From assembly GCF_030389965.1 (NCBI RefSeq), contig NZ_CP128400.1, forward strand, positions 2,046,001-2,110,000: DNA of 64,000 bases. The letters are read 5' to 3'. Numbering within the stretch: the stretch's first letter is position 1; each line of letters opens with the position of its first letter. This document shows positions 18,585 through 61,831 of this stretch, piece after piece. The stretch is from Candidatus Chlorohelix allophototropha (GTDB lineage Bacteria > Chloroflexota > Chloroflexia > Chloroheliales > Chloroheliaceae). The translations under genes were made by a program, and so were the position numbers. The notes under the pieces were generated by a model. That model was not told the DNA's origin, searched no databases, and worked only from the letters and a program-made list of their open reading frames with translations.

Positions 18585-18966
18585 CCCCGTTCGGGTATCC
18601 CCCGTTCGGGGGACAGGTGGGCGCATTCCGATGCGCCCGGTTTTAACCCATCCGAAGGGCGTATTCAAATACGCCCCTACCCGAATCTCGCCTGTTCGCG
18701 CCTTTGCCAATTTCCCCGATTGTGCCAACCCAACGTATCATTGCACCGTCCGGGTATCCCCCATCCGGGGGACAGGGGGGCGCATTCCGATGCGCTCGGT
18801 TTTAACCCATCCGAAGGGCGTATTCAAATACGCCCCTACGGGAATCTTACGTGTTCGCGCATATGCCCCAATTCCCCCGATTGCGCCACCCATTGTATAT
18901 TTGCACCGTTCGGGTTGGGTAGGGGCGCATTCCGATGCGCCCGGTTTTAACCCAACGCCCCCTACG
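18585..18966. repeat. REP-like array (family 1), three units, overlapping the end of a STAND gene
   Basis: Tandem copies of GGGCGCATTCCGATGCGCCC, GGTTTTAACCCATCCGAAGG and GGGCGTATTCAAATACGCCC, spaced by GTGTTCGCGCATATGCCCC-like text. The proximal end supplies the stop codon of the STAND gene at 18962 (coding TCGTAGGGGGCG). The same composite unit flanks the RAYT gene at 25816-26319. Confidence 0.85.
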
Positions 18967-21295
18967 AACCCGAACCACGCACAACCTCCAAGGCATCCGC
19001 CACGACCTTGATGTTGGGATGGGTGGGGGGCAAGGCGCGTTTGAATATGTCCAACGCGCGTTCCAGCAACCGCTCTGCCTCTGCCCGTTGCCCCATTTGG
19101 TACAACAACACCCCCATGTTGTTGCAACCAAGCGCAACCTGTGGATGGTCTGCGCCAAGTTGCTTTTCCCAAATGGCAAGGGCGCGTTGGTATAGGGGCA
19201 GGGCGGCGGGTAAATCTCCCATCGCCTTTAGCAAGCCCCCCATGTTGTTGAGGTCAATCGCCACGTCAGGATGCTCCGAGCCTAACGCCTTTTCATCAAT
19301 GGCAAGGGCGCGTTGGAAGAGGGGCAGGGCGGCGGGTAAATCTCCCATCGCCTTTAGCAAGCTCCCCATGTTGTTGCAGCCAGTCGCTACTTGGGGATGG
19401 TCTGCGCCAAGTTGCTTTTCCCAAATGGCAAGGGCGCGTTGGAAGAGGGGCAGGGCGGCGGGTAAATCTCCCATCGCCTTTAGCAATAACCCCATGTTGT
19501 TGAGGCGGGTAGCAACCGTAGGATGGTCAGACCCTAGCGTCTTCTCGCTAATGGCAAGGGCGCGTTGGAAACAACCTAACGCCTGCCCATAGTCCGCCCG
19601 CGCATATTGCAGATACCCTGCAATCTGGTTGTACAGGTAGCTTGTCGCTTCCAATGCCGCGCCCCGCTCCTCGGCGTAGCCCGCCACCGCCAGCCCCGCT
19701 TCCCGCAATCGCCCGCACTCCTCCCACACCTCTATTTTCCCGCTTATATCCCCAGAAGGGTAAGCCGCCCGCAACAGCCCTGCCGCTTGCTCTAGCCGTG
19801 CGGTGTCCGTGCCTTGCGCCGTGCGCAGCGCCAGCCCCACCAAGCGGTGCAGCGTCAGCCCTTCCCCGCTCAACTCCGCCAGCGAGTAGCGTTTTATCGC
19901 CCCGATTGCCTCGTCCCACTCCAGTTCATCCCCCGCCGTTGCCGCCAACCGCTCCGGCAATTCCTCGGCATGCTCAAGGAACAGGCTGAAGGGGATAGGC
20001 TCGGTACCAAGCCACGCGCACAACTCCAGCAACTCCGCGCCTGCCGGGTTCGCCTCCCCCAACGCCTTGAAGGAAATATCCCAAGTGGTGGCAACCTTAT
20101 CGTTGTGGTAGCCCTCCGGCGCATTGCCCTTCTTGAACAATTCCATTCTCCGCTCCTTGAACAAGCGCAAGTAATCCGCCCCGCTCTTGGATTTCGCAAT
20201 AATGTAGGCGGCAGCTTGCTCCAACGCAAGCGGCAAGCCCCCCAACTCTCGCGCCAACTCCCCGAAAGCGGGGTCAGCCCTTCCCACGCGCTTTTCGAGG
20301 AACTGCACGCTCTGGCTTTGCTCCCATATTCCAGCGGTCAGGGGCTTGATGCTTTTGCCCCAATCGCCGTTGTAGCGCGAGGTAATCAGGGTTTGCCCGT
20401 TGCCCCCTCCCGGCAGGTAGGGCAGCACATCGGCGGGATGCTCTACGTTGTCCAGCACCAACAGCCAGCGTTCGGGGCAGGTGCGCAGGTAATGGAGGGC
20501 GTTGGCAATCGCCTCTTGTTGTTCGGTTGCGCCTTGCTTTGCCAAGCCTAGCTTGAAAGCGAGGTCGGCAAGGTCGGAGCGCAAGGAGTTCTTGAACTCA
20601 GCGTTCACCCACCACACCAACTCGAAAGTATGGGCAAAGCGGAAAGCATATTCCACCGCGGTTTGGGTTTTGCCCACCCCGCCCAAACCCGCTACCGCTT
20701 GGGTGATGGCAGAGGTTTGCGCCTTTTCGAGGTCGGTCAGCAAATCCTCGCGCCCGGTGAAATAGGCGTTGCGCAGATGGGTAATATTCCAGATGGGGGG
20801 GAACGTGCCGGGATAGCGCGGGGCATCGCCGGATTTGGGGAAGGGCGGGGCGGTAGTGGGCTTGCCCGTTTCCGCCAACACTTTACGAATTTCTTCGAGC
20901 AATTCTTCCCGCGCAGACGCTTCCTCTTTGCCCACCAAATTGATGCGGGCAATTGCCTTGAGCAAGCCGAGCTTATTCGGGTCGCACTCTGCCACCTTCA
21001 CGGGGATAATCAGCCGCTGCCGTCCGGTGGGGTCATCGGCGAAAAAAGCCGCCCACTCCGGCAGGGTGTAAAGCGAGTTCAGATAATTATCGGAGAGGAT
21101 GGCGATAATGCGCTGCGAGGAAATAATCGCGTTGTGCATATACCCTACGAAATTTGTTCCCGCCAGCGATTCCCACGCTTGAATGGTGAGAGAATAGCCC
21201 GCCGCTTCCAGATACCAAGCGACCCATTCCGCCCAACTCTTGTCGGCTTTGTTGTAGCTGATAAAGAAATCTTTTTTAGGTTCGTTCTGACTCAT
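18962..21295 (-). CDS. TIR / NB-ARC / TPR STAND protein
   Basis: A 777-aa signal-transduction ATPase. Residues 8-140 form a TIR domain (DFFISYNKADKSWAEWV, candidate NADase glutamate E80 in LPEWAAFF). A proline-rich linker follows to ~165, then the NB-ARC from FTGRED (179) with P-loop GLGGVGKT (203-210), Walker B LLVLDNVE and TSRYNGDWG. A winged-helix/arm region comes next. The C-terminal ~200 residues hold four complete kinesin-light-chain-type TPR units of 42 residues with nearly identical DNA. Such proteins oligomerise on sensing a trigger, and TIR then consumes NAD in known antiphage relatives. The role here is inferred. The promoter module is at 21296-21382. Confidence 0.9.
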   Translation of the reverse strand: MSQNEPKKDFFISYNKADKSWAEWVAWYLEAAGYSLTIQAWESLAGTNFVGYMHNAIISSQRIIAILSDNYLNSLYTLPEWAAFFADDPTGRQRLIIPVKVAECDPNKLGLLKAIARINLVGKEEASAREELLEEIRKVLAETGKPTTAPPFPKSGDAPRYPGTFPPIWNITHLRNAYFTGREDLLTDLEKAQTSAITQAVAGLGGVGKTQTAVEYAFRFAHTFELVWWVNAEFKNSLRSDLADLAFKLGLAKQGATEQQEAIANALHYLRTCPERWLLVLDNVEHPADVLPYLPGGGNGQTLITSRYNGDWGKSIKPLTAGIWEQSQSVQFLEKRVGRADPAFGELARELGGLPLALEQAAAYIIAKSKSGADYLRLFKERRMELFKKGNAPEGYHNDKVATTWDISFKALGEANPAGAELLELCAWLGTEPIPFSLFLEHAEELPERLAATAGDELEWDEAIGAIKRYSLAELSGEGLTLHRLVGLALRTAQGTDTARLEQAAGLLRAAYPSGDISGKIEVWEECGRLREAGLAVAGYAEERGAALEATSYLYNQIAGYLQYARADYGQALGCFQRALAISEKTLGSDHPTVATRLNNMGLLLKAMGDLPAALPLFQRALAIWEKQLGADHPQVATGCNNMGSLLKAMGDLPAALPLFQRALAIDEKALGSEHPDVAIDLNNMGGLLKAMGDLPAALPLYQRALAIWEKQLGADHPQVALGCNNMGVLLYQMGQRAEAERLLERALDIFKRALPPTHPNIKVVADALEVVRGSGS

Positions 21296-26363: not shown

Positions 26364-26756
26364 TAGCATTCCGATGCGCCCGGCGTTGGTTTGGTAAATA
26401 CGGGGGGGTTGTGGCAACAAACGAAACCAAATCCGGGCGTATTCAAATACGCCCCTACGGGAATCTTACGTGTTCGCGCATATGCCCCAATTCCCCGTGT
26501 TTGCGCCACCCATCGTATATTTGCACCGTTCGGATTGGTAGGGGCGCATTCCGATGCGCCCGGTTTTAACCCATCCGAAGGGCGTATTCAAATACGCCCC
26601 TACGGGAATCTTACGTGTTCGCGCATATGCCCCAATTCCCCGTGTTTGTGCCACCCAACGTATATTTGCATCGTCCGGGTATCCCCCATCCGGGGGACAG
26701 GGGGGCACATTCCGATGCGCCCGGTTTTAACCCAACGCCCCTACGAACCCGAACCC
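26364..26756. repeat. REP-like array between RAYT and a STAND gene
   Basis: Three composite units with GGGCGCATTCCGATGCGCCC, GGGCGTATTCAAATACGCCC and ACGTGTTCGCGCATATGCCC, nearly identical to 18585-18966. The end nearest 26756 overlaps the 3' end of the STAND gene and supplies its stop region. Confidence 0.85.
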
Positions 26757-29335
26757 CTCACAACCTCCAACGCATCTGCTGTACCTTTTATATAGGGATG
26801 GGCGGGGGGCAACGTCCGTTTGAATATGTCCAACGCGCGAGAAAGCAACCGCTCTGCCTCCGCCCGTTGCCCCATCTGATACAACAACACTCCCATGTTG
26901 TTGAGGCGAAGGGCAACTGTAGGATGGTCAGACCCTAGCGTTTTCTCTCCAATTTCTATGGCGCGTTGGAGGAGGGGCAGGGCGGCGGGTAAATCTCCCA
27001 TATCCTGTAGCAAGCTCCCCATGTTGTTGAGGCGGGTAGCAACCGTAGGATGGTCAGACCCTAGCGTCTTCTCGCTAATGGCAAGGGCGCGTTGGTATAG
27101 GGGCAGGGCGGCGGGTAAATCTCCCATATCCTGTAGCAAGCTCCCCATGTTGTTGAGGTCTGTTGCAACTCCCGGATGCTCTGAGCCTAGCGTTTTCTCG
27201 CTAATGGCAAGGGCGCGTTGGTAGAGGGGCAGGGCGGCGGGTAAATCTCCCATATCCTGTAGCAAGCTCCCCATGTTGTTGAGGCGGGTAGCCACAGTGG
27301 GATGGTCAGAACCTAGCGTTTTCTCGCTAATAGCAAGGGCGCGTTGGTAGAGGGGCAGGGCGGAGGCGTATTCTCCCATCGCCTTTAGCAACCCACCCAT
27401 GTTGTTGAGGCTTTGCGCCACATCGGGATGGTTCTCACCCAACTGCTGCTCTCGGATGGCAAGGGCGCGTTGGTAGAGGGGCAGGGCGGAGGCGTATTCT
27501 CCCATATCCTGTAGCAATAACCCCATGTTGTTGAGTCCGGTGGCTAGGGTGGCGTGTTCCGCCCCATATATCTGCTCTTTGAGTTTCAGCCCACGCTCGT
27601 AACAGCCCTTCGCCTGCCGATAGTCCGCCCTTGCATTTTTCAGGTACAAGCCAATCTGATTGTACAGTCCATCTGCCGCTGCCAGCGCCGCGCCCCGTTC
27701 CTCGGCGTAGCCCGCCACCGCCAGCCCACTTTCCAGCAGCCGCCCGCACTCCTCCCACGTACTAATGTCATCACTATCGTAAGGGTAAGCCGCCCGCAGC
27801 AGCCCTGCCGCTTGCTCTAGCCGTTCGGTGTCTGTGCCTTGCGCCGTTCGCAGCGCCAGCCCCACCAAGCGGTGCAGTGTCAGCCCTTCCTCGCTCACTT
27901 CTGCCAGCGAGTAGCGTTTTATCGCCGCTATCGCCTCGTCCCACTCCAGTTCATCCCCTGCCGTTGCCGCCAATCGCTCCGGCAACTCCTCGGCATTCTC
28001 AAGGAACAGGCTGAAGGGGATAGGCTCGGTACCAAGCCACGCGCACAACTCCAGCAACTCCGCGCCTGCCGGGTTCGCCTCCTCCAACGCCCGAAACGAA
28101 ATCTCCCAAGTGGTGGCAACCTTATCGTTGTGGTAGCCCTCCGGCGCATCGCCCTTCTTGAACAATTCCATTCTCCGCTCTTTGAACAGGCGCAAGTAGT
28201 CCGCCCCGCTTCTGGATTTCGCGTTCATGTAGGCGGCAGCCTGTTCCAGCGCAAGGGGCAAGCCCCCCAATTCTCGCGCCAACTCCTCGAAAGCGGGGTC
28301 AGCCTTTCCCACGCGCTTTTCGAGGAACTCCACGCTGAAAGCCTGCTCCCATATTTGAGCAGGTAGGGGTTTGATGCTCTTGCCCCAATCGCCGTTGTAG
28401 CGCGAGGTAATCAGGGTTTGCCCGTTGCCGCCGTTCGGCATGTAATGCAGGATGTCGGCGGGTTCTTCCACGTTGTCCAGCACCAACAGCCAAGGTTTGG
28501 GGCAAGTGTGCAGATAGCGCAGGGCGAGGTCAATCGCTTCTGCTTGTTCGGTTGCGCCGGGAGTCGCCAGCGTCAGTTCAAAAGCGAGGTCGGCAAGGTC
28601 AGAGCGCAGGGAAGTGGCGAACTCAGCGTTCACCCACCACACCAACTCGAACCGCTCTTTATTGCGGTAGGCATATTCCACCGCCGTTTGGGTTTTGCCC
28701 ACCCCGCCCAAACCCGCCACCGCTTGCGTAATCGCGCTCGTCTGCGCCTTTTCGAGGGCATCCAGCAAATCCTCGCGCCCGGTGAAATACTCGTTGCGCC
28801 GATGCGGGATATTCCAGATGGGCGGGAACGTGCCGGGGTAGCGCGGGGCAGGGCTAGAACCGTTGGCGGTTTGCGCCGCTACGCCCTGACCGGGAAAGCG
28901 CGGGGCAATGGTGGGCTTGGTACGCACCCGCTTGATTCCATCCAGTAGCGCCTGTGCTGCCGTATCTTCCTGCTCTTTGGTCAGGTCAATGTACACCAAC
29001 GCTCGCAACAAGCCGTCCGGTTTGCAATCGCGCACCTTGACCGGAACGAGTAGCCCCTTTTCCCCGGTGGGGTCGTTGGCGAAGAAAGCCGCCCATTCGG
29101 GCGCGGTGAACATCGAGGTGAGGTAATCGGAGGAGAAGATGGCAATCAGGCGTTCGCATCCGCCGGCGGCGCGTTGCATATCCAGCACGAAATTGCCGCC
29201 CTTTTTGAAATCCCACGCCTGAATAACGGTGGTGTACTTGGCTGCTTCTAATTGCCAAGCGACCCATTCCGCCCAACCCTTGTCGGCTTTGTTGTAGCTG
29301 ATAAAGAAATCTTTTTGCGGCTCGTTCTGGCTCAA
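26741..29335 (-). CDS. TIR / NB-ARC / TPR STAND protein (six TPR units)
   Basis: An 864-aa paralogue of the protein at 18962-21295. The TIR domain covers residues ~8-135 (DFFISYNKADKGWAEWV, with E in APEWAAFF). The NB-ARC follows from FTGRED with GLGGVGKT, LLVLDNVE and TSRYNGDWG. The tail has six complete 42-residue TPR units (LNNMG...AL..L.RAL) against four in the sister gene. The TIR domains are clearly more diverged than the ATPase parts. It starts with TTG (TTGAGCCAG) at 29335, the same start codon context as 59417. The inferred role is a sensor with an NAD-consuming effector. Confidence 0.9.
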   Translation of the reverse strand: MSQNEPQKDFFISYNKADKGWAEWVAWQLEAAKYTTVIQAWDFKKGGNFVLDMQRAAGGCERLIAIFSSDYLTSMFTAPEWAAFFANDPTGEKGLLVPVKVRDCKPDGLLRALVYIDLTKEQEDTAAQALLDGIKRVRTKPTIAPRFPGQGVAAQTANGSSPAPRYPGTFPPIWNIPHRRNEYFTGREDLLDALEKAQTSAITQAVAGLGGVGKTQTAVEYAYRNKERFELVWWVNAEFATSLRSDLADLAFELTLATPGATEQAEAIDLALRYLHTCPKPWLLVLDNVEEPADILHYMPNGGNGQTLITSRYNGDWGKSIKPLPAQIWEQAFSVEFLEKRVGKADPAFEELARELGGLPLALEQAAAYMNAKSRSGADYLRLFKERRMELFKKGDAPEGYHNDKVATTWEISFRALEEANPAGAELLELCAWLGTEPIPFSLFLENAEELPERLAATAGDELEWDEAIAAIKRYSLAEVSEEGLTLHRLVGLALRTAQGTDTERLEQAAGLLRAAYPYDSDDISTWEECGRLLESGLAVAGYAEERGAALAAADGLYNQIGLYLKNARADYRQAKGCYERGLKLKEQIYGAEHATLATGLNNMGLLLQDMGEYASALPLYQRALAIREQQLGENHPDVAQSLNNMGGLLKAMGEYASALPLYQRALAISEKTLGSDHPTVATRLNNMGSLLQDMGDLPAALPLYQRALAISEKTLGSEHPGVATDLNNMGSLLQDMGDLPAALPLYQRALAISEKTLGSDHPTVATRLNNMGSLLQDMGDLPAALPLLQRAIEIGEKTLGSDHPTVALRLNNMGVLLYQMGQRAEAERLLSRALDIFKRTLPPAHPYIKGTADALEVVRGSGS

Positions 29336-39064: not shown

Positions 39065-40507
39065 TCAGAGGGGCGCGTTAGCGACACACACCACCAACCG
39101 AAAACCGAAAAAGTTGAGATCGTTGCGAGGAAGGTTGAAGTAGCGGTACACGCAGGACGCATTAGCTTGACTGACGAGGAAAGACCCGCCCCGCAGCACA
39201 CGATACTTACCGCTCGCGTCCACCGCCACTTCCTTAGGCTTCTCGTACTTGTTCTGGCACCACTCCCACACGTTCCCGCCCATGTCCATTGCCCCGCATG
39301 CTGCGGCCCCTTGCGGGTACATCCCCACTGCCGTTGTTCGACCCAAACCGGCTTCATCCGTATTGGCGTAACCCTTTTGCCACGCGCCCCACGGATATTT
39401 GCGCTGTTGGCTGCCCCCTTGCGCCGCCCATTGCCATTCCCATTCGGTTGGCAAGCGCACCTCCGCGTTCTCCCCGATTATCAATGGACTGCCGCTACCG
39501 CCCGGATTCGGCAATTGCCAGCCCTGCATGCACTGAGTGAGCCAACGCCCAAACGCTACCGTCTGATACCACGACATGTTATCTCGCGGCATGTTCAAGC
39601 CTTTCTGCCTTTGCTCACTCAGTGTTTGCGGCTGGTATTCTCTCGGGAAGCCCTGCCACCACTCCCGGTTGTTATATCCGTCCGCCGCTTTCACAAAGGC
39701 TTCGTACTGGGCAAAGGTTATTTGGTATTGCGCAATGTAAAAGGGTTGTACCTCAAAGTTTTGTTTCTCAATTTCCAGCTTACCACCCGGCGCTACCGCT
39801 AGCCACTCTATGTCCGGGATACCGTCCGGGCGCAAGCCCACCCCTCGCCGCGTGTCACCGATTTCGCTCAAGCGGTCGCCGATTTCCATACGGCGTTGGT
39901 GCGTGGTAGTAAGGTCGCCGATTTCATCTAGCAACCGCTCAGCATCATTTTCAGAAGGCGCGGGTTTCGGCTCTGCCGCCTTTGCTACGGGCGGGGCTGG
40001 TTGTGGAACTGCAACGGGCGGGACGGGCGGCTTTTCGACAGGGGGAGTAGCAACAGGCGGTTCGGGTATTACAATGCCGAAATTCTTGGCATGGAGGCGC
40101 AACCCTTTCAACAGCATTTCGCGCCCACGCTCATCATAGAACCGCGCCGCTTGCCATTTGCTCAACCTTCGTGGAATTTCGCACTCCGCCAGTTTCAAGG
40201 GGATGATATTGCTCAACCCTTCCGGCATATACTTGGCATAGTAAAGCGCGGTTTCTATCTCTGCCTGTACATAGCCAATTTTTGCCACCGATTCGGGCGT
40301 AAGACACACCAAGATGATGTGACTTTCTTCCAATGCCTTCTCAATGGCGTACTGCCAAGGCTGTCCCGGATATAGTTCTTCCTCGTCCAGCCATGGCTCA
40401 AGCCAGTGGCTTTCAGCTTTCAAACGCTGGTACAATTCGCGCACTATGGGCTTATCCCCGGAGGAGTGGCACAGAAACACTTTCAGTTTGGGGGGTACGT
40501 TGGGCAT
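39065..40507 (-). CDS. TIR-FGE protein A (variable C-terminal lectin-like domain)
   Basis: A 480-aa protein. The TIR domain spans residues ~8-140 (LKVFLCHSSGDKPIVRELY, candidate catalytic E in GYVQAEIETAL). A Pro/Ala-rich linker follows, then an FGE-sulfatase/C-type-lectin-like domain (about 215-480) with EWLAVAPGGKLEI, PFYIAQYQITFAQYEAFV, VRLPTEWEWQWAAQGG, YPWG and the closing VLRGGS...GFRLVVC. The catalytic Cys pair of true FGE is absent, so the domain probably binds a ligand. I chose ATG 40507 (MPNVPPKLKVF) because it matches the starts of the two paralogues. The last variable segment is described separately. Confidence 0.88.
   Translation of the reverse strand: MPNVPPKLKVFLCHSSGDKPIVRELYQRLKAESHWLEPWLDEEELYPGQPWQYAIEKALEESHIILVCLTPESVAKIGYVQAEIETALYYAKYMPEGLSNIIPLKLAECEIPRRLSKWQAARFYDERGREMLLKGLRLHAKNFGIVIPEPPVATPPVEKPPVPPVAVPQPAPPVAKAAEPKPAPSENDAERLLDEIGDLTTTHQRRMEIGDRLSEIGDTRRGVGLRPDGIPDIEWLAVAPGGKLEIEKQNFEVQPFYIAQYQITFAQYEAFVKAADGYNNREWWQGFPREYQPQTLSEQRQKGLNMPRDNMSWYQTVAFGRWLTQCMQGWQLPNPGGSGSPLIIGENAEVRLPTEWEWQWAAQGGSQQRKYPWGAWQKGYANTDEAGLGRTTAVGMYPQGAAACGAMDMGGNVWEWCQNKYEKPKEVAVDASGKYRVLRGGSFLVSQANASCVYRYFNLPRNDLNFFGFRLVVCVANAPL
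39107..39181 (-). other. Hypervariable segment of TIR-FGE A (DGR-type variable region candidate)
   Basis: 25 codons between RGGS and GFRLVV. Compared with the three other copies, the flanks are almost nucleotide-identical while inner codons differ at positions 1 and 2. Examples are GTC here against CAC, AAC and GGC in the other copies, and AGT against TAT, AAT and GAT. Confidence 0.65.
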
Positions 40508-40586
40508 TGTTTGCGCTCCGGCGTAGGGTTTATCGGTAGGCGATTGCAGTTTAATTATACCCAAACGGGCAAAGTTCCGCTACCGT
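40508..40586 (-). promoter_or_regulatory. Shared promoter region of TIR-FGE A
   Basis: On the minus strand TATAAT (40559-40554), preceded by TTTGCCCGTTTGGG and followed by TAAACTG and CGCCGGAGCGCAAACA before the ATG. The same text precedes TIR-FGE B and C. The -35 is not clear. Confidence 0.6.
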
Positions 40587-40632
40587 TGCTTACCGAGAGG
40601 CGTTAGGATGTGGATGAATGCGCTCGGCGGTT

Positions 40633-43281
40633 TCAAAGACCCGCGATAGGAGACGACACCACCAACCGAAAACCGATAAGGTTGCCAACGTGGCTCGGAA
40701 GACTGAGGCTACGGTACGCACAGGAAAAAGTTTGATTGTTATAGAAAGACCCACCCCGCACCGCCCGCTGCATACCGTCCACCGCCACATTCTCCGGTAG
40801 CTCATACTTGTTTTGACACCACTCCTCCACGTTACCACTCATATCCATTGCGCCGCATGCTGCTGCCCCTTGCGGGTACATGCCCACCGCCGTTGTTCGT
40901 GCCAAACCTGCTTCATACGTGTTGGCGTAGCCTTCTTTCCATTCTCCCCAAGGATATGCCCGCTTTTGGTTACCCGCTTGCGCTGCCCATTGCCATTCCC
41001 ATTCAGTTGGCAAGCGCACCTGCGCGTTCTGCCCCACCACCAACGGGTTATTCCCACCGCCCGGACTCGGCAATTGCCAGCCCTGCATGCGCCTGTTCAG
41101 CCAACGCCCAAACGCCACGCTCTGATACCATGAGATGTTATCGCGCGGGTTGTTCAAGCGCATTTGCTTCTGCCCTTTAAGTGTTTGCGGCTGGTATTCT
41201 TTGGGGAAGCCCTGCCACCACTCGCGGTTGTTATAGCCGTCTTTTGCTTGCACAAAAGCTTGGTATTGCGCAAAGGTTATTTGGTATTGGGCGATATAGA
41301 AAGGCTGTACCTTAAAGGTCTGTTTCCTACGAGGATAATTTTCAATATCTAGATTGCCGCCCGGCGCAACCGCCCGCCACTCTATGTCGGGGATACCATC
41401 CTTGCGCACGCCCACGCCTTGCCGTGTGTCGCCGATTTCGCTCAATCTGTTGCCGATTTCCATGCGGCGCTGGTGCGTAGTGTTGGGGGCGGCAATTTCA
41501 TCAAGCAATCGTTCCGCTTCGGTTTTGGTAGGCGCAGGTTTTGGTGCTGCTGCCTTTGCTACGGGAGTAGGCGCAGATTGGGGCGCGTTAGCGGAACACA
41601 CCACCACCCGAAAACCATAATAGTCGAGATCGCGGTACGGATCGTTGTACGTGCCGTATGAGCAGAACGCAAGATCATGATAGTGGTAGTAAGACCCGCC
41701 CCGCAACACTTGACTATCAAGACTTGCTCCCAGACTCAACCCCCTGTACTGACACCACTCCCACAGGTTTCCGTTCATGTCCAACGCCCCGCATACTGCC
41801 GCCCCCTGCGGGTACATCCCCACCGCCGTTGTTCGACCCAAGCCCGCTTCATCCGTATTGGCGTAACCCTTTTGCCACGCGCCCCACGGATATTTGCGCT
41901 GTTGGCTGCCCCCTTGCGCTGCCCACTGCCATTCCCATTCATGCGGCAAGCGCACCTGCGCGTTCTCCCCGATTATCAATGGACTGCCGCTACCGCTCGG
42001 ACTCGGCAATTGCCAACCTTGCATGCGCTTATTCAACCACCGCCCGAACGCCATCGCTTGATACCACGATATACTATCACGCGGGTTACTTGCGCATTTC
42101 TGTCTTTGTTCATGCAGCTTTTGCAGTTGGTACTCCTTTGGAAAGTCCTGCCACCATTCCGGGTTCTGGTAGCCGTCTTTTGCCTGTACAAACGCCTCGT
42201 ATTGGGCAAAGGTTATTTGGTATTGCGCAATGTAAAAGGGTTGCACTTCAAAGGTTTGTATGTCAATTTTCAGCTTGCCGCCCGGCGCAACCGCCAGCCA
42301 CGCTATATCGGGTAGACCGTCCGGGCGCACGCCTACACCCTTACGCGGGTCGCCCATCTCGCTCAACCTGTCGCCGATTTCCATACGGCGTTGGTGCGTG
42401 GTTTTAAACTCGCCGATTTCGCGCAACAAGCGGGTTTGCTCGCTTTCGGGTACAGACGAAACGGGCGTGGGTTGTGGCGCTGCCGCTTTTACTATGGGCG
42501 GGGCTACTGGCGCGGGTTTTGGCGTAGCAACGGGCGGTTTTTCGGCAGGGGGAGTGGCAACGGGCGAAATAGGAGAGGCAACCTGAGCAGCCAACACGCG
42601 CTTTTCCAGAATAGTTATTTCCTTACGCGCATCTTCAAGCTGGATTATCAAGTGAGGGGGCGCGTTAAGACTACCGAATTGCGCGTACTGCAACTCCAGC
42701 ACCGTCAGTCGGCGTTTAGTTTCAACTAACAGTTTTTGCAAAATCTCCAAGTCGGTTATCGCATTGGATGACGTTTCGTTGAATGGAGCTGAGACGGGCG
42801 GCGCGGGCGGCTTTTCGATAGGGAGAGCAGCAATCGGCGTTTCGGGTATGACGATGCCGAGCTTTTCGGCACGCATCCGCAACGCCCGCAGCAAATGCTC
42901 GAATCCATCCTCCTCGAAATGATCTACCCAATGCCATTGGCTCAACTGCTCTGGCACTTCGCACTCTTCCAAGCGCAAAGGTATCATGTAGATAGTACCT
43001 TCCGGTTTCTCCTGAGCTACATCCAGCGCATCACCAATCTCTTTTTGAACATAGCCTTCCCGATTGATGGAGTTCCGCGAGAGACACGCCACCACAATTT
43101 CGCTTTGCCGAATTGCTTTGGGAATTTCCACCCGCCAGTTCTGTCCCGGAATCAAATCCTTTTTATCCAGCCACGGCTTTACCCACGATAATATAGAAAG
43201 TCGCTCATATAGCCGGATTACCGCAGGCTTATCCGGTGAGGCGTGGCACAGAAAGACTTTCAGTTTGGCGGGGTCGGGCAT
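40633..43281 (-). CDS. TIR-adaptor-FGE-FGE protein B (two variable lectin-like domains)
   Basis: An 882-aa protein. TIR covers residues ~7-145 (KVFLCHASPDKPAVIRLY, E81 in GYVQKEIGDAL). A helical hairpin adaptor lies at ~178-232 (LELQYAQFG, NAPPHLIIQLEDARKEI). A Pro/Ala-rich linker, FGE-type domain 1 (about 300-565), a second linker and FGE-type domain 2 (about 610-882) follow. Each FGE domain ends in its own RGGS...GFR variable segment. The adaptor hairpin is shared with the STAND protein at 59417. The tandem arrangement probably arose by fusion of two TIR-FGE genes with loss of the second TIR. Confidence 0.88.
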   Translation of the reverse strand: MPDPAKLKVFLCHASPDKPAVIRLYERLSILSWVKPWLDKKDLIPGQNWRVEIPKAIRQSEIVVACLSRNSINREGYVQKEIGDALDVAQEKPEGTIYMIPLRLEECEVPEQLSQWHWVDHFEEDGFEHLLRALRMRAEKLGIVIPETPIAALPIEKPPAPPVSAPFNETSSNAITDLEILQKLLVETKRRLTVLELQYAQFGSLNAPPHLIIQLEDARKEITILEKRVLAAQVASPISPVATPPAEKPPVATPKPAPVAPPIVKAAAPQPTPVSSVPESEQTRLLREIGEFKTTHQRRMEIGDRLSEMGDPRKGVGVRPDGLPDIAWLAVAPGGKLKIDIQTFEVQPFYIAQYQITFAQYEAFVQAKDGYQNPEWWQDFPKEYQLQKLHEQRQKCASNPRDSISWYQAMAFGRWLNKRMQGWQLPSPSGSGSPLIIGENAQVRLPHEWEWQWAAQGGSQQRKYPWGAWQKGYANTDEAGLGRTTAVGMYPQGAAVCGALDMNGNLWEWCQYRGLSLGASLDSQVLRGGSYYHYHDLAFCSYGTYNDPYRDLDYYGFRVVVCSANAPQSAPTPVAKAAAPKPAPTKTEAERLLDEIAAPNTTHQRRMEIGNRLSEIGDTRQGVGVRKDGIPDIEWRAVAPGGNLDIENYPRRKQTFKVQPFYIAQYQITFAQYQAFVQAKDGYNNREWWQGFPKEYQPQTLKGQKQMRLNNPRDNISWYQSVAFGRWLNRRMQGWQLPSPGGGNNPLVVGQNAQVRLPTEWEWQWAAQAGNQKRAYPWGEWKEGYANTYEAGLARTTAVGMYPQGAAACGAMDMSGNVEEWCQNKYELPENVAVDGMQRAVRGGSFYNNQTFSCAYRSLSLPSHVGNLIGFRLVVSSPIAGL
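40675..40746 (-). other. Hypervariable segment 2 of TIR-FGE-FGE B
   Basis: 24 codons between RGGS and GFRLVV, one codon shorter than copies A and B1. The downstream flank (SSPIAGL, the stop and ~50 bp beyond) is nearly identical to that of TIR-FGE C, as expected for a conserved initiation site of mutagenic homing. Confidence 0.65.
41617..41691 (-). other. Hypervariable segment 1 of TIR-FGE-FGE B (internal)
   Basis: 25 codons, rich in Tyr, His and Asp (YYHYHDLAFCSYGTYNDPYR). The flanks CGGGGCGGGTCTT and GGTTTTCGG match copy A. Its CSANAP end matches the CVANAP end of A. The position inside the protein means the variable surface is not restricted to the C-terminus. Confidence 0.65.
42586..42750 (-). 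other. Helical-hairpin adaptor shared with the STAND protein at 59417
   Basis: Residues ~178-232 of protein B and residues ~8-62 of the 59417 protein share the pattern L..L...A.FG..N.PxH....Q..D..KEI..LE. It is predicted to form two helices joined by a short FG-N-P turn. A homotypic interaction is inferred. Confidence 0.6.
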
Positions 43282-43360
43282 GTTTGCGCTCCGGTGTAGG
43301 GTTTAGCTCTAACGCAACTACAGTTTAATTATACCCAAACGGGCAAAGTTTCGCTACTGC
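43282..43360 (-). promoter_or_regulatory. Shared promoter region of TIR-FGE-FGE B
   Basis: TATAAT on the minus strand (43333-43328) in the same ~80-bp context as for A and C (TTTGCCCGTTTGGGTATAAT). The conserved block continues into the 3' flank of gene C. Confidence 0.6.
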
Positions 43361-43407
43361 TGCTTCACCGAGAGGCGTTAGGATGTGGATGAATGCGCTC
43401 GGCGGTT

Positions 43408-44847
43408 TCAAAGACCCGCAATAGGGGACGATACCACCAACCGAAACCCGCAATCGAAATATCCGTCTAGTGGAAGACCATAGCCATAACGAAACATGCA
43501 CGCTGCCCCAACCTGATCGCCATAGCAAGAGCCACCCCGCAGCACTCGACTGTTCCTGCTCTCGTCCACCGCTACCTCGTCCGGCTTTTCCCACTTGTTC
43601 TGACACCACTCCCACAGATTGCCGCTCATATCCATTGCCCCGCATTTCGCCGCCCCTTGCGGGTACATGCCCACTGCCGTTGTTCGCTTCAAACCCGCTT
43701 CGCTGGTATTAGCACAACTCTCTTGCCACACGCCCCACGGATATTTGCGCTGCTCTGCCCCACCCTGCGCCGCCCATTGCCACTCCCGTTCCAAAGGCAA
43801 CCGCACCTGCGCGTTATTGCCCACTATTAACTGATTACCTCCACCGCCCGGATTGGGTAACTGCAAACCCCGCATATACCGATTCAACCAACGCCCAAAC
43901 GCCACGCTCTGATACCACGACACATTGTCCCTCGGATTGTTCAATCTCATTTGCTTCTGCCCTTTAAGTGCTTGTGGCTGGTATTCTTTCGGGAAGCCTT
44001 GCCACCACTCCCGATTCTGGTAGCCGTCTTTTGCCTGCACAAAGGCTTCATATTGGGCAAAGGTTACTTGGTATTGGGCGATGTAGAAGGGCTGTACTTC
44101 AAAAGTCTGTTTCGCTACTTCCAACCTACCGCCCGGCGAAACCGCCAACCACGCTATGTCGGGTAGCCCATCCTTGCGCAAGCCCACGCCACGCCGCGGG
44201 TCGCCGATTTCGCTCAACCTGTCGCCGATTGCCATGCGGCGTTGGTGCGTGGTGTTGGGGGCGGCAATTTCATCGAGCAATCGTTCCGCTTCGGTTTTTG
44301 TAGGCGCGGGCGTGGGTTTCGGTTCTGCCTCTTTTCTAACGGGCGGGGCTACTGGCGCGGGTTTTGGCGTAGCAACGGACGGTTTTTCGACATGGGAAGC
44401 GGCAACAGAGGAAATTGACACACCCACTTGCCCGGCGCGTTTCTTGAACGACTTCAACAACCGCGCATAACTACCCGCCTCGAAATAATCAACCCAATGT
44501 AAATGCCCCAACCGCTCTGGAACTCGACACTCTTCCAATTTGAGCGGAACGAGAAATATAGCTCCTTCCGGTTGCTGGTCTGCCACATCCAGCGCAAGTT
44601 TAATTTCTTTGTGGACATACCCGGCAGCATCGGTAGCATTAGGCGACAAGCACACAATTACTATGTGGCTCTGACGCACCTCTTTGGGTATTTCTAGCTC
44701 CCAATTGTCACCCGGTGTCAGGTCTTCCTTGTCCAGCCAAGGTTGAATCCAGCCCTCATTCTGTAGCTGCTGATAGAGTTCATACACTCTGTGCTTATCT
44801 TTATGCGAGTGGCACAGAAACACTTTCAGTTTGGCGGGGTCGGGCAT
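43408..44847 (-). CDS. TIR-FGE protein C (variable C-terminal lectin-like domain)
   Basis: A 479-aa protein. TIR spans residues ~7-140 (LKVFLCHSHKDKHRVYELY, E in GYVHKEIKLAL). A linker rich in Pro/Ala (about 150-195) follows, then the FGE-type domain (about 205-479) with DIAWLAVSPGGRLEV, PFYIAQYQVTFAQYEAFV, VRLPLEREWQWAAQGG, YPWG and GNLWEWCQNKWEKP. It ends in the variable segment and GFRLVVSSPIAGL. It is the first gene of the three-gene array, with its own promoter module. The inferred role is a TIR effector gated by a variable recognition domain. Confidence 0.88.
   Translation of the reverse strand: MPDPAKLKVFLCHSHKDKHRVYELYQQLQNEGWIQPWLDKEDLTPGDNWELEIPKEVRQSHIVIVCLSPNATDAAGYVHKEIKLALDVADQQPEGAIFLVPLKLEECRVPERLGHLHWVDYFEAGSYARLLKSFKKRAGQVGVSISSVAASHVEKPSVATPKPAPVAPPVRKEAEPKPTPAPTKTEAERLLDEIAAPNTTHQRRMAIGDRLSEIGDPRRGVGLRKDGLPDIAWLAVSPGGRLEVAKQTFEVQPFYIAQYQVTFAQYEAFVQAKDGYQNREWWQGFPKEYQPQALKGQKQMRLNNPRDNVSWYQSVAFGRWLNRYMRGLQLPNPGGGGNQLIVGNNAQVRLPLEREWQWAAQGGAEQRKYPWGVWQESCANTSEAGLKRTTAVGMYPQGAAKCGAMDMSGNLWEWCQNKWEKPDEVAVDESRNSRVLRGGSCYGDQVGAACMFRYGYGLPLDGYFDCGFRLVVSSPIAGL
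43450..43527 (-). other. Hypervariable segment of TIR-FGE C
   Basis: 26 codons between RGGS and GFRLVV, with one extra codon relative to A. Examples of the pattern are GGC, GAT and GTT at the columns where the other copies have AAC/CAC/GTC, AAT/TAT/AGT and ACT/GAT/GCT. Confidence 0.65.
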
Positions 44848-44956: not shown

Positions 44957-45496
44957 TTATTTTGTTGGAGTGGCGGTTGCTAGCCGACTCACAATCCAGT
45001 TGCAGTCTTTTTGCCCATCCCCGTAGGGGTCACGGCAGTAAAACAGAAAATCTTTGTAGCCCTGCCACGGCACTAAGAATCTCAAAGCGCCCTTTCCGTA
45101 CATTGCCTCGTAACCTTCTACCGAGGGATAGATAAAATACACATCATCTATCAAAAGAGCAGGGTCATTAAGCACTGGTAGGGTATTGATATTATTTGAA
45201 ACAACAATCAGACCTGTGCCCAGATAAATAAAGGCAAGCCAATACTTGTTCCTTTGCGTGTTTGTAACATCCAGCACCGCACCGGCTTCTACATAGTCAG
45301 GTGTCCCAAAATTGGCGACTACCTCGCTCAACTTGAAGCGGGCGGTAAAGTTAGGGCGCACGCTGTACAGGCTCTGGCTTCCTTTCTTAAACTGCATAAT
45401 ACTTCTGCCACTCTTAGTAAACCAATCCCAACCGATCTCCTCTATTTCAGTTCCTTCATAGTAGGTAACATCCGTAAAAAGGGGATTATTTTTCAT
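44957..45496 (-). CDS. C-terminal part of a lipoprotein split by an in-frame stop
   Basis: A 179-aa segment that aligns with residues ~95-276 of the intact lipoprotein at 45781-46611 (compare NNPLFTDVTYYEGTEIEEIGWDW with NPLVSAVSIGYFEGDAYGFIAWDW, and FLVPWQGYKDFLFYCRDPYGDG with FIVPWEGFKDFRYYCRMTDKG). It is in the same frame as the fragment at 45500-45769 and is separated from it by one TGA and one sense codon. ATG 45496 could allow re-initiation, but this part would then lack the signal peptide. Confidence 0.65.
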   Translation of the reverse strand: MKNNPLFTDVTYYEGTEIEEIGWDWFTKSGRSIMQFKKGSQSLYSVRPNFTARFKLSEVVANFGTPDYVEAGAVLDVTNTQRNKYWLAFIYLGTGLIVVSNNINTLPVLNDPALLIDDVYFIYPSVEGYEAMYGKGALRFLVPWQGYKDFLFYCRDPYGDGQKDCNWIVSRLATATPTK

Positions 45497-45780: not shown

Positions 45781-46611
45781 TTATTTGCGTTTCCCGTTGG
45801 GGTAAGCATCCAGAACACTATCGCATTTCACTATTTGACCTTTATCGGTCATACGACAATAGTAGCGAAAATCCTTGAAGCCCTCCCACGGTACGATAAA
45901 GCTTGGGTCGGCAGGAAAGCCATAGAGCTTTTGTTGGCTACTAATATAATCAGGGTTTACAATGCTTAGCTTTCCAAAGCTAATATCTTCATTTATGGGC
46001 GGCTCTTTGGTATAGTACTTATTATAAAGTATCAAACCTTGTGGCTGGTAAATCAGGTACAGGTAGTAGTAGAGTGAACGTCCGGCGTCTTCCCAGCTAA
46101 AAGGTGCGATAACGTGCGTGGGATAGCCGTATCTCTTGATGACTTCTTTCAATGGTACTTGAGGAAGAGCGGGACTAATAGAATAAATTGTTCTGGTAGG
46201 TTTTGTGGCATCGTATTGTATATAACCGCCCGTTCCAATGCTACCGTCTGCTCTCTTTTTCGCATCTACCCAATCCCACGCAATAAAGCCATAAGCATCT
46301 CCTTCAAAATAGCCTATTGACACCGCTGAAACCAGAGGATTTTGCTGGAGTAGCGTCATTGCTTCTTCGGCGGAAGTTTTACCGGGTGTAATACCCTCAT
46401 AACAGGGGAGGGTGCAACTTGTATCCTGAAGCCAACGAAACTCCCAGCCGGGTGCAGGTTTAGGTTTGGGTGGTACAGGCACTTGGATGGTGAAGGTGGG
46501 AGTCGTAGCTGGAATGGTGGGGGTAGGTGGATACAGCGTGGCAGCCTCTCCGCACGCGCCCAGCAACAATGACAGACCGAATAATAGAATTAGCGCCAAG
46601 CTTACCCGCAT
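45781..46611 (-). CDS. Lipoprotein of unknown function (intact paralogue)
   Basis: A 276-aa lipoprotein. The signal ends in the lipobox LLGAC (Cys near residue 20), followed by a Pro/Thr spacer (25-55) and a domain with the conserved CTLPCYEGITPGKTSAEEA, which may hold a disulfide, then VPWEGFKDFRYYCR near the end. I know similar Chloroflexota lipoproteins only as hypothetical. It is attached to the outer face of the membrane. It lies 11 bp upstream of the split copy, so the two form a tandem duplication. Confidence 0.75.
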   Translation of the reverse strand: MRVSLALILLFGLSLLLGACGEAATLYPPTPTIPATTPTFTIQVPVPPKPKPAPGWEFRWLQDTSCTLPCYEGITPGKTSAEEAMTLLQQNPLVSAVSIGYFEGDAYGFIAWDWVDAKKRADGSIGTGGYIQYDATKPTRTIYSISPALPQVPLKEVIKRYGYPTHVIAPFSWEDAGRSLYYYLYLIYQPQGLILYNKYYTKEPPINEDISFGKLSIVNPDYISSQQKLYGFPADPSFIVPWEGFKDFRYYCRMTDKGQIVKCDSVLDAYPNGKRK

Positions 46612-56940: not shown

Positions 56941-56999
56941 GCGCTAATTATAGCATTCCTTTCAAGCTTTGCTCTTACTTCTAAACTGCTACGCCTACC

Positions 57000-57287
57000 G
57001 GAGAGAAGGAGAGAGAGGGAGTGAGTTCAAGGGGACACCCCTTGTCACCCCGGCAGGCTTTCCACCTGCACCCCCCATCGCTTTTGCCCTTACTTCTAAA
57101 CTGCTACGCCTACCGGAGAGAAGGAGAGTGAGTGAGTTCAAGGGGACACCCCTTGTCACCCCGGCAGGCTTTCCACCTGCACCCCCCATCGCTTTTGCTC
57201 TTACTTCTAAACTGCTACGCCAACCGGAGAGAAGGAGAGTGAGTGAGTTCAAGGGGACACCACCTGCACCCCCCTCACCGCTTTTGC
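57000..57287. repeat. Family 2 repeat, three tandem units of ~115 bp
   Basis: Each unit holds CTTCTAAACTGCTACGCC, CGGAGAGAAGGAG, AGTTCAAGGGGACACCCC and GGCAGGCTTTCCACCTGCAC. The third unit is truncated in the middle. This is a near-perfect tandem array, so copy number may vary between strains. Confidence 0.8.
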
Positions 57288-59416: not shown

Positions 59417-61831
59417 TTGAGCGATAACTTTTCCGAGCGCGATTCTTATAAAAGACAGCTTGAAAACCACCGAAAGAACCTTGCCACCCTTCAGGTACAG
59501 TTAGCCGGATTCGGGCAATTTAATGTCCCTGCTCATATTCCCCTCCAAATTGGCGACATCGAAAAAGAGATTGAGCGACTGGAAAGCTTGTTGGCGTTGC
59601 CCTCGTCTGAAAATCGTATTTTTCAGGTGCCGCATCAGCGCAACGCCTTTTTCACCGGACGCGAGGATTTGTTGGCTGACCTCGAAAAGGCGCAGACTTC
59701 CGCCATCACTCAGCAAGCGGTGGCTGGCTTGGGCGGTGTTGGCAAAACCCAAACGGCGGTGGAATACGCCTACCGCAATAAAACATGTTTCGAGTTGGTG
59801 TGGTGGGTCAACGCCGAGTTCGCGACTTCTCTGCGCTCTGACCTTGCCAACCTCGCCTATGCCCTCAAGCTGGCGACCCCCGGCGCAACCGAACAAGAAG
59901 AAGTGATTGCCCTCGCCCTCCAACACCTACGAACCTGCCCCACCCATTGGCTGTTGGTGCTGGACAACGTGGAAGAACCCGCCCATATTCTGCCCTATCT
60001 ACCCGGTAGCGGCAACGGGCAAACCCTGATTACTTCGCGCTACAATGGCGATTGGGGCAAGAGCATCAAGCCTTTGCCAGCCCAAATATGGGGGCAGAGT
60101 CAAAGCGTGCAGTTTCTGGAAAAGCGCGTGGGAAGAGCTGACCCCGCTTTCGAGGAGTTGGCGCAGGAGTTGGGGGGCTTGCCGCTTGCGCTCGAACAGG
60201 CAGCCGCCTACATGAACGCGAAATCCAAGAGCGGGGAATCGTACCTAGAGCTGTTCAAGAAGCGGAGGCTGGAATTGCTGAAGCGGGGCAATGCGCCGGA
60301 GGGCTACCACAACGACACGGTTGCCACCACATGGGAGATTTCGTTCAAGGCGTTGGGGGAGGCAAACCCGGCAGGCGCGGAATTGCTAGAGTTGTGCGCG
60401 TGGCTAGGAGTGGCGGAAATCCCCTTTAGCCTGTTCCTTGAGCATGCGGACAAGTTGCCGGAGCGATTGGCGGCAGCAGCAGGGGATGAACTGGATTGGG
60501 ACGAGGCAATTGGGGCGATAAAACGCTATTCGCTGGCGGAGGTGAGCGAGAAAGGGCTGACGCTGCACCGCTTGGTGGGGCTGGCGCTGCGGACGGCGCA
60601 AGGCACGGACACCACCCGACTGGAACAAGCGGCGGGGCTGCTGCATGCCGCTTACCCCTCTGGGGATTTGAGTAAGAAAATAGAGCTGTGGGAGGAATAC
60701 GGACAGTTGCTGGAAGCGGGGCTGGCGGCGGCGGGCTACGCGGAGGAACGGGGCGTGGCTTTGGCAGATGCCAGTTATCTGTACAACCAGATTGGGACTT
60801 ATATATACGGTGCGAGAGCGGATTACCGACAGGCGCGGAACTATTTCCAATGCGCCCTTGCTATTCGGGAAAAGTCGCTCGGTTCAGAACATCCGGATGT
60901 GGCTGAAAGCCTGAACGACTTGGGAATGGCGCTACAGGCGATGGGTGACCTGCCCGCTGCCCTGCCTTTGTACCAACGCGCCCTTGCTATTCGGGAAAAG
61001 TCATTCGGTTCGGAACACCCTGATGTGGCGCAAAGCCTCAACAACCTTGGGATGTTGCTAAAGGCGATGGGCGACCTGCCCGCCGCCCTGCCGCTTCTCC
61101 AACGCGCCCTTGCCATTTTTGAGAAGCAGTTGGGCGAGTTCCATCTTTCTTTGGCGACAGGCTTCGCCAGCCTTGGGAGCTTGCTAAAGGCGATGGGCGA
61201 CCTGCCCGCCGCCCTGCCCCTTCTCCAACGCGCCCTTGCCATTTTTGAGAAGCAGTTGGGCGAGTTCCATCCCGATGTGGCGACCAGCCTCAACAACCTT
61301 GGGAGCTTGCTACAGGCGATGGGAGATTTACCCGCCGCCCTGCCTCTCTTCCAACGCGCCCTTGCCATTTGGGAAAAGCAACTTGGCGCAGACCATCCTA
61401 ACGTGGCAAGTTGCTGCAACAACATGGGGTTATTGCTACAGGCGATGGGAGAATACGCCTCCGCGCTGCCGCTTTTCCAACGCGCCCTTGCCATTTGGGA
61501 AAAGCAACTTGGCGCAGACCATCCACAGGTAGCGACTGGTTGCAACAACATGGGGTTATTGCTACAGGCGATGGGCGACCTGCCCGCCGCGCTGCCGCTT
61601 TTGCAACGCGCCCTTGCCATTCGGGAGAAGCAGTTGGGCGAGTTCCATCCCGATGTGGCAAACAGCCTCAACAACCTTGGGGCGTTGCGGTATGAGATGG
61701 GGGAACGGGCGGAGGCGGAGCGGTTGTTCTCCCGCGCTCTGGAGATTTTCACCAAGAAGCTCGGTTCACAACATCCTTCTACCCAAATCACGAAGAGATG
61801 GTTGGCGCAGGTGCGGGGTTCGGGTTCGTAG
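59417..61831 (+). CDS. NB-ARC / TPR STAND protein with a helical adaptor instead of TIR
   Basis: An 804-aa protein. Residues ~8-62 form a helical hairpin (LQVQLAGFGQFNVPAHIP, DIEKEIERLES) in place of TIR. From FTGRED (79) onward it matches the two TIR STAND proteins: P-loop GLGGVGKT (~104-111), LLVLDNVE and TSRYNGDWG, a winged-helix/arm region and seven complete TPR units of 42 residues. The adaptor recurs in the TIR-FGE-FGE protein at 40633-43281. Its own effector is missing, so it probably recruits one. The start is TTG in the same context as 29335. The stop lies in a REP-like sequence. Confidence 0.9.
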   Translation: MSDNFSERDSYKRQLENHRKNLATLQVQLAGFGQFNVPAHIPLQIGDIEKEIERLESLLALPSSENRIFQVPHQRNAFFTGREDLLADLEKAQTSAITQQAVAGLGGVGKTQTAVEYAYRNKTCFELVWWVNAEFATSLRSDLANLAYALKLATPGATEQEEVIALALQHLRTCPTHWLLVLDNVEEPAHILPYLPGSGNGQTLITSRYNGDWGKSIKPLPAQIWGQSQSVQFLEKRVGRADPAFEELAQELGGLPLALEQAAAYMNAKSKSGESYLELFKKRRLELLKRGNAPEGYHNDTVATTWEISFKALGEANPAGAELLELCAWLGVAEIPFSLFLEHADKLPERLAAAAGDELDWDEAIGAIKRYSLAEVSEKGLTLHRLVGLALRTAQGTDTTRLEQAAGLLHAAYPSGDLSKKIELWEEYGQLLEAGLAAAGYAEERGVALADASYLYNQIGTYIYGARADYRQARNYFQCALAIREKSLGSEHPDVAESLNDLGMALQAMGDLPAALPLYQRALAIREKSFGSEHPDVAQSLNNLGMLLKAMGDLPAALPLLQRALAIFEKQLGEFHLSLATGFASLGSLLKAMGDLPAALPLLQRALAIFEKQLGEFHPDVATSLNNLGSLLQAMGDLPAALPLFQRALAIWEKQLGADHPNVASCCNNMGLLLQAMGEYASALPLFQRALAIWEKQLGADHPQVATGCNNMGLLLQAMGDLPAALPLLQRALAIREKQLGEFHPDVANSLNNLGALRYEMGERAEAERLFSRALEIFTKKLGSQHPSTQITKRWLAQVRGSGS

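Follow-up and report, generated by a model that had tools for sequence, protein, structure and literature searches.

This locus raises the question of whether a short, predicted helical hairpin carried by two proteins, namely a TIR protein with two FGE stretches (protein B) and a STAND NTPase, is a private link between the two or a more general docking module. Both are coded within a single 64,000-nucleotide stretch of the 'Ca. Chlorohelix allophototropha' genome (hereinafter the window), in which the relevant features are:

40633..43281, minus strand: protein B, TIR (residues 9–131), hairpin (178–232), FGE and FGE (Pfam)
42586..42750, minus strand: hairpin of protein B, putative adaptor, residues 178–232 (pairwise score against shuffles; profile)
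59417..61831, plus strand: STAND protein, hairpin, NB-ARC-type NTPase and TPR array (Pfam; paralog comparison)
59417..59602, plus strand: hairpin of the STAND protein, putative adaptor, residues ~1–62 (pairwise score; profile; AlphaFold2 model)

A preliminary description of this DNA claimed that the two segments are similar; this similarity is real, and residues 178–232 of protein B correspond exactly to 42586–42750 as given there. They align without gaps to residues ~2–57 of the protein coded by 59417–61831 with a BLOSUM62 local score of 87, as against 30 ± 4.5 for shuffles scored against the whole of protein B (maximum 66 in 500). A family profile, whose rows include both window copies, detects each of them with E ~1e-21 (3.6e-21 for the B copy), and the best of 6255 shuffled frames reaches only E = 1.9 against it. 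The hairpin of protein B lies within a Pro-rich linker, with the TIR domain (TIR_2, 6.6e-25 in Pfam) on one side and the first FGE (FGE-sulfatase, 9.9e-68 over two stretches) on the other. In the STAND protein, for which the called start codon is TTG, Pfam detects TPR_12 with 4.9e-126 and NB-ARC with 8.6e-05, the latter slightly below the cut-off.

For the STAND segment, AlphaFold2 predicts two helices (3–31 and 40–60) separated by a turn (mean pLDDT 85.4, pTM 0.69, from an input alignment of 17 sequences). The family is thus predicted to be a small, non-enzymatic, all-helical domain of ~55 residues, with a turn signature of the form FG-x(3-4)-P-x-H, in which the proline is almost invariant. 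No family in Pfam or NCBIfam covers the segment, no enzyme family gives a credible match, and a sequence search of the PDB returned generic helical hairpins alone, with no solved relative. So minimal a fold, with just two helices, may provide for the simple dimerization of each host protein. It could be a self-oligomerization coiled coil by which each host protein dimerizes or clusters itself with no cross-recruitment, and both the plain antiparallel form of the hairpin and a Foldseek search yielding generic helical hairpins alone (none at E ≤ 0.001) are consistent with this. The conserved turn (G, P and frequently H and Q) looks more specific than helix packing needs, which favors another explanation, namely that the hairpin docks on a third, shared surface, such as an NTPase domain, a membrane or nucleic acid.

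The effector-associated domains (EADs) of prokaryotic conflict systems offer a further precedent. They are recognized as small, helical, non-enzymatic domains that are terminally placed on both core and effector proteins, often in adjacent genes, are more closely related when they share a genome, and can trade places with effector domains (Kaur et al. 2020, PMC7159879; Kaur et al. 2021, PMC8195603). The last of these features can be seen within the window, where the STAND protein has two paralogs:

18962..21295, minus strand: paralog 1, TIR, NB-ARC and TPR, with the TIR at the hairpin position (Pfam; comparison)
26741..29335, minus strand: paralog 2, TIR, NB-ARC and TPR, with the TIR at the hairpin position (Pfam; comparison)

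As claimed earlier, the STAND protein bears its hairpin where both these paralogs have a TIR domain: homology to either sets in immediately past the hairpin or TIR, with 74–78% identity over the bodies. Hence, in the TIR-bearing relatives an effector domain sits directly on the core protein, a swap that self-oligomerization alone does not predict. If the hairpin is a docking module, the cis-fused TIR of the paralogs would do the same job as an effector recruited through the hairpin. The presence of a TIR in cis and of a hairpin on near-identical STAND bodies in one window thus offers a clean natural experiment on trans effector recruitment, a model that, in the literature covered, rests on comparative genomics. 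The window also codes for a STAND regulator resembling MalT that has no hairpin (AAA/NB-ARC, TPR and a LuxR-type GerE domain; 49673–52066, minus strand).

Protein B is itself flanked by two related genes:

39065..40564, minus strand: protein A, TIR and FGE without hairpin, 68 bases downstream of B (Pfam)
43408..44847, minus strand: protein C, TIR and FGE without hairpin, 126 bases upstream of B (Pfam)

The TIR-FGE genes C, B and A are consecutive on the minus strand (39065–44847, gaps of 126 and 68 bases) and probably form one transcript. The C-terminal loops of their FGE domains are flanked by conserved sequence but themselves diverge strongly, a pattern like that of variable lectins. Variation driven by a diversity-generating retroelement (DGR) was considered and rejected, since the genome yielded no reverse transcriptase of the DGR type: all RVT_1 matches over the cut-off are HNH-ended ORFs of 561 or 623 aa of the group II intron type, with the 561-aa form also having GIIM. 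Beside these genes, two minus-strand genes (44957–45496 and 45781–46611) code for proteins sharing a C-terminal FxVPWxGxKDFxxYCR motif, one with a lipoprotein-like signal. Elsewhere in the window, a tandem repeat with a 111-base unit (56968–57272; 2.7 copies, 94% matches) lies between two minus-strand genes. PADLOC models match the window proteins over their TIR or TPR regions only.

The hairpin is not confined to these two proteins. The genome codes for 13 proteins with a strong hairpin match and one with a weak copy, i.e., 11 more carriers than B and the STAND protein, plus the weak case. Four further genomes from its family lack the hairpin altogether. At the class level it is found in 48 of 115 genomes, with up to 15 matches per genome; two Anaerolineae genomes have 34 and 28. 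Outside these it is rare, with a few cyanobacterial and planctomycete carriers: it was detected in 3 of 291 genomes of the phylum of a Calothrix locus and in 1 of 292 of that of a Schlesneria locus. A plasmid search with the family consensus gave no matches, and a scan of genome contigs with an alignment of the B-type hairpin gave no confirmed match; the contig scan succeeded with the commoner hairpin subtype as query. That some genomes have a single match only is in keeping with self-oligomerization. In some genomes of the class, the matches come from one zinc-ribbon/FHA-like protein that bears two weak copies in tandem. Such proteins, which additionally show Pro-rich segments, occur in class-mate genomes (L228, L229 and L231), where their two weaker tandem hairpins resemble the family and lie outside obvious conflict systems.

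The architectures within the genome include TIR-hairpin-FGE-FGE (B), hairpin-NB-ARC-TPR, hairpin-TIR, DUF4062-like-hairpin-FGE, hairpin-TPR, hairpin-TPR-FGE, three successive hairpin-WD40 proteins, hairpin-TM-vWA-like, winged-helix-like carriers and others, the DUF4062-like, vWA-like and winged-helix-like labels being our reading of the sequence without a Pfam match. The three consecutive hairpin-WD40 genes (L035:3037-8170), with hairpins 57–71% identical, are apparently recent tandem duplicates. In other genomes, Pfam identifies NB-ARC, NACHT, nSTAND1, Roc-COR, TIR, SIR2, CHAT, SAVED, trypsin-SAVED, PNP, FGE, TCAD9, EAD2 (in two proteins) and EAD7 as partners. The EAD2 and EAD7 matches cover a different part of these proteins from the hairpin, and such direct fusions are not predicted by self-oligomerization alone. 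Altogether, 35 of 50 scanned hairpin proteins have a Pfam domain, which in all but ~4 of the 35 is one usual in conflict systems by our raw count. Some copies are on proteins that show no link to conflict systems, namely the zinc-ribbon/FHA-like, EAL, beta-helix and response-regulator-like (L263) proteins. To our knowledge, no phage or immune phenotype has been described for any of these hairpin proteins.

Copies on NTPase or core proteins and copies on effector or signaling domains occur together in a single genome or locus. The former comprise fusions to STAND, NACHT, nSTAND1 and TCAD9 and the latter those to TIR, CHAT, SIR2 and SAVED, with same-locus cases at L218, L220, L216 and L219. The Calothrix locus couples a hairpin-NB-ARC-TPR protein with a hairpin-CHAT protein at most 5.4 kb away, and that of the planctomycete Schlesneria has four hairpin genes, including those for an nSTAND-HD protein and a TIR/SEFIR protein. 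Copies in each of several neighboring genes are again not predicted by self-oligomerization alone.

The proposal in the preliminary description that the hairpin could bring protein B to the STAND protein is not supported as a dedicated link between the two. A dedicated pair of this kind, coupling FGE recognition to NTPase amplification, draws some plausibility from the two hairpin carriers being at most 17 kb apart and from published STAND-FGE-EAD systems, which suggest a lectin-to-STAND route (PMC10907252, PMC8195603). However, identity between their hairpins is just 29%, which ties for the lowest of the 12 in-genome comparisons of the STAND hairpin, while each has a better-matched partner; their genes are non-adjacent and on opposite strands; and at least 11 other hairpin proteins would compete. 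The closest hairpin to that of the STAND protein is in a two-domain hairpin-TIR protein located elsewhere (C2:931392, 47–49% identity), and those closest to the hairpin of B are in the DUF4062-like-hairpin-FGE (67%) and hairpin-TPR (58%) proteins, both 50–60 kb away. Sequence similarity has been argued to predict adaptor partners among EADs (PMC7159879, PMC8195603). If this applies here, the natural effector of the STAND protein would be the hairpin-TIR protein, with B belonging to another sub-group. On this basis of hairpin similarity, we rejected the dedicated pair as the leading reading and consider it very improbable. The combination of TIR, hairpin and FGE, presented earlier as unfamiliar, recurs in one chain (hairpin-TIR-FGE) in L236, a genome of the Anaerolineae; B is thus not unique in combining them, and this recurrence would sit well with a dedicated pair.

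Across genomes, the hairpin shows the statistical hallmarks of EADs. It is terminal in 60 of 76 copies as against 17.3 expected (simulated maximum 32). Excluding pairs homologous outside the hairpin, identity is 33.3% within genomes and 30.5% between them, a modest difference that is nevertheless beyond shuffling, being reached in only 6 of 2000 label shuffles; the nearest neighbor comes from the same genome for 22 of 72 hairpins as against 5.9 expected. That the hairpins of otherwise unrelated proteins are more alike when coded in one genome is likewise not predicted by self-oligomerization alone, an alternative that we regard as unlikely. The likeness to EADs noted in the preliminary description was thus borne out: the hairpin is a mobile, terminal, multi-copy module that is carried by effectors as well as NTPases, can stand in the place of TIR, and occurs in fusions with EAD2 and EAD7. 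By displaying this published EAD pattern, it lends support to the adaptor idea.

The parallels with EADs hence extend to a small, helical, non-enzymatic module with a terminal position and many copies per genome, its presence on NTPase hubs and effector or signaling domains and in neighboring genes, the effector swap, and genome-specific similarity (PMC7159879, PMC8195603). In contrast, the hairpin falls below the cut-off of every catalogued EAD, is a separate module where fused to EAD2 or EAD7, and is mostly found in Chloroflexota. In a Pfam comparison of 33 family members at E ≤ 10, it matched none of EAD1–EAD11 other than EAD9, nor bDLD or TRADD-N, among the best 25 of 45 families. EAD9 (PF19962) had the most weak matches of any family (4 of the 33 members, best E 0.066), and the STAND hairpin is weakly colinear with positions 7–58 of the 62 of its profile (E 0.19, 12 bits). 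All these fall short of the 25 bits that Pfam sets as its curated cut-off, and we rejected membership in EAD9 on score; further, the EAD9 copies read lack the FG..P.H turn. No EAD9 over the cut-off is present in the genome itself, and the matches in class-mates are mostly coiled coils matching by chance, only two or three being EAD9-like. In adjacent paralogous AAA-like/FGE genes (L171:3798-9324), the middle adaptor is an FG..P.H hairpin in one and an EAD9-like hairpin at the same place in the next, with flanks 41% and 69% identical.

With its two helices, the hairpin differs from the Death fold, which is a bundle of six. The bacterial Death-like domains and TRADD-N resemble the hairpin in being proposed homotypic adaptors that join STAND or ternary systems to effectors (PMC8195603). 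The STAND-EAD8-FGE systems with diversity-generating retroelements likewise combine an adaptor, a STAND NTPase and an FGE lectin with a trans-recruited effector (PMC10907252), but the present genome lacks a retroelement reverse transcriptase, and its FGE variation is between paralogs. So far as the libraries and papers show, the hairpin is an EAD-type adaptor family missing from Pfam and NCBIfam, i.e., a new family of a known kind; an earlier description may exist, the literature covered being mostly that outside subscription journals and preprints.

Its wide distribution, mostly on immune-type sensor, switch and killer domains, argues for a docking module rather than a private B–STAND link. 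We posit that the hairpin is probably a small docking module of the EAD kind through which an oligomerized NTPase gathers hairpin-bearing effectors by homotypic contact. Accommodating the copies on both membrane proteins and sensors besides effectors is a strength of docking on a third surface; nonetheless, the multi-copy adaptors of this class have been proposed to be homotypic (PMC7159879), and we hold this alternative to be quite unlikely. Under the homotypic docking mechanism, copies on STAND/NACHT NTPases would mark the switch or hub, those on TIR, SIR2, CHAT, SAVED, trypsin, PNP and similar domains the effectors or signal components, and those on FGE, WD40, TPR and membrane proteins the likely sensors or scaffolds. 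Upon sensing an invader, the NTPase might oligomerize to display a ring of hairpins, which would collect hairpin-bearing effectors by hairpin–hairpin contact, leading to their activation by proximity. The likeliest effector partner of the STAND protein in this genome would be the hairpin-TIR protein, with protein B as one among several possible clients.

More tentatively, and with some doubt, a single hairpin "currency" could wire a genome-wide immune network in Chloroflexota, with a dozen to ~30 proteins per genome, specificity arising from small sequence differences, and double-adaptor proteins linking it to the EAD2 and EAD7 networks. If true, this network would span lectin-like sensors, NLR-like NTPases and TIR, SIR2, CHAT and SAVED effectors via one two-helix contact. 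As a docking module of the EAD kind, the hairpin would bring an uncatalogued, heavily expanded adaptor family into the EAD repertoire and provide a sequence handle for new immune genes of the Chloroflexota.
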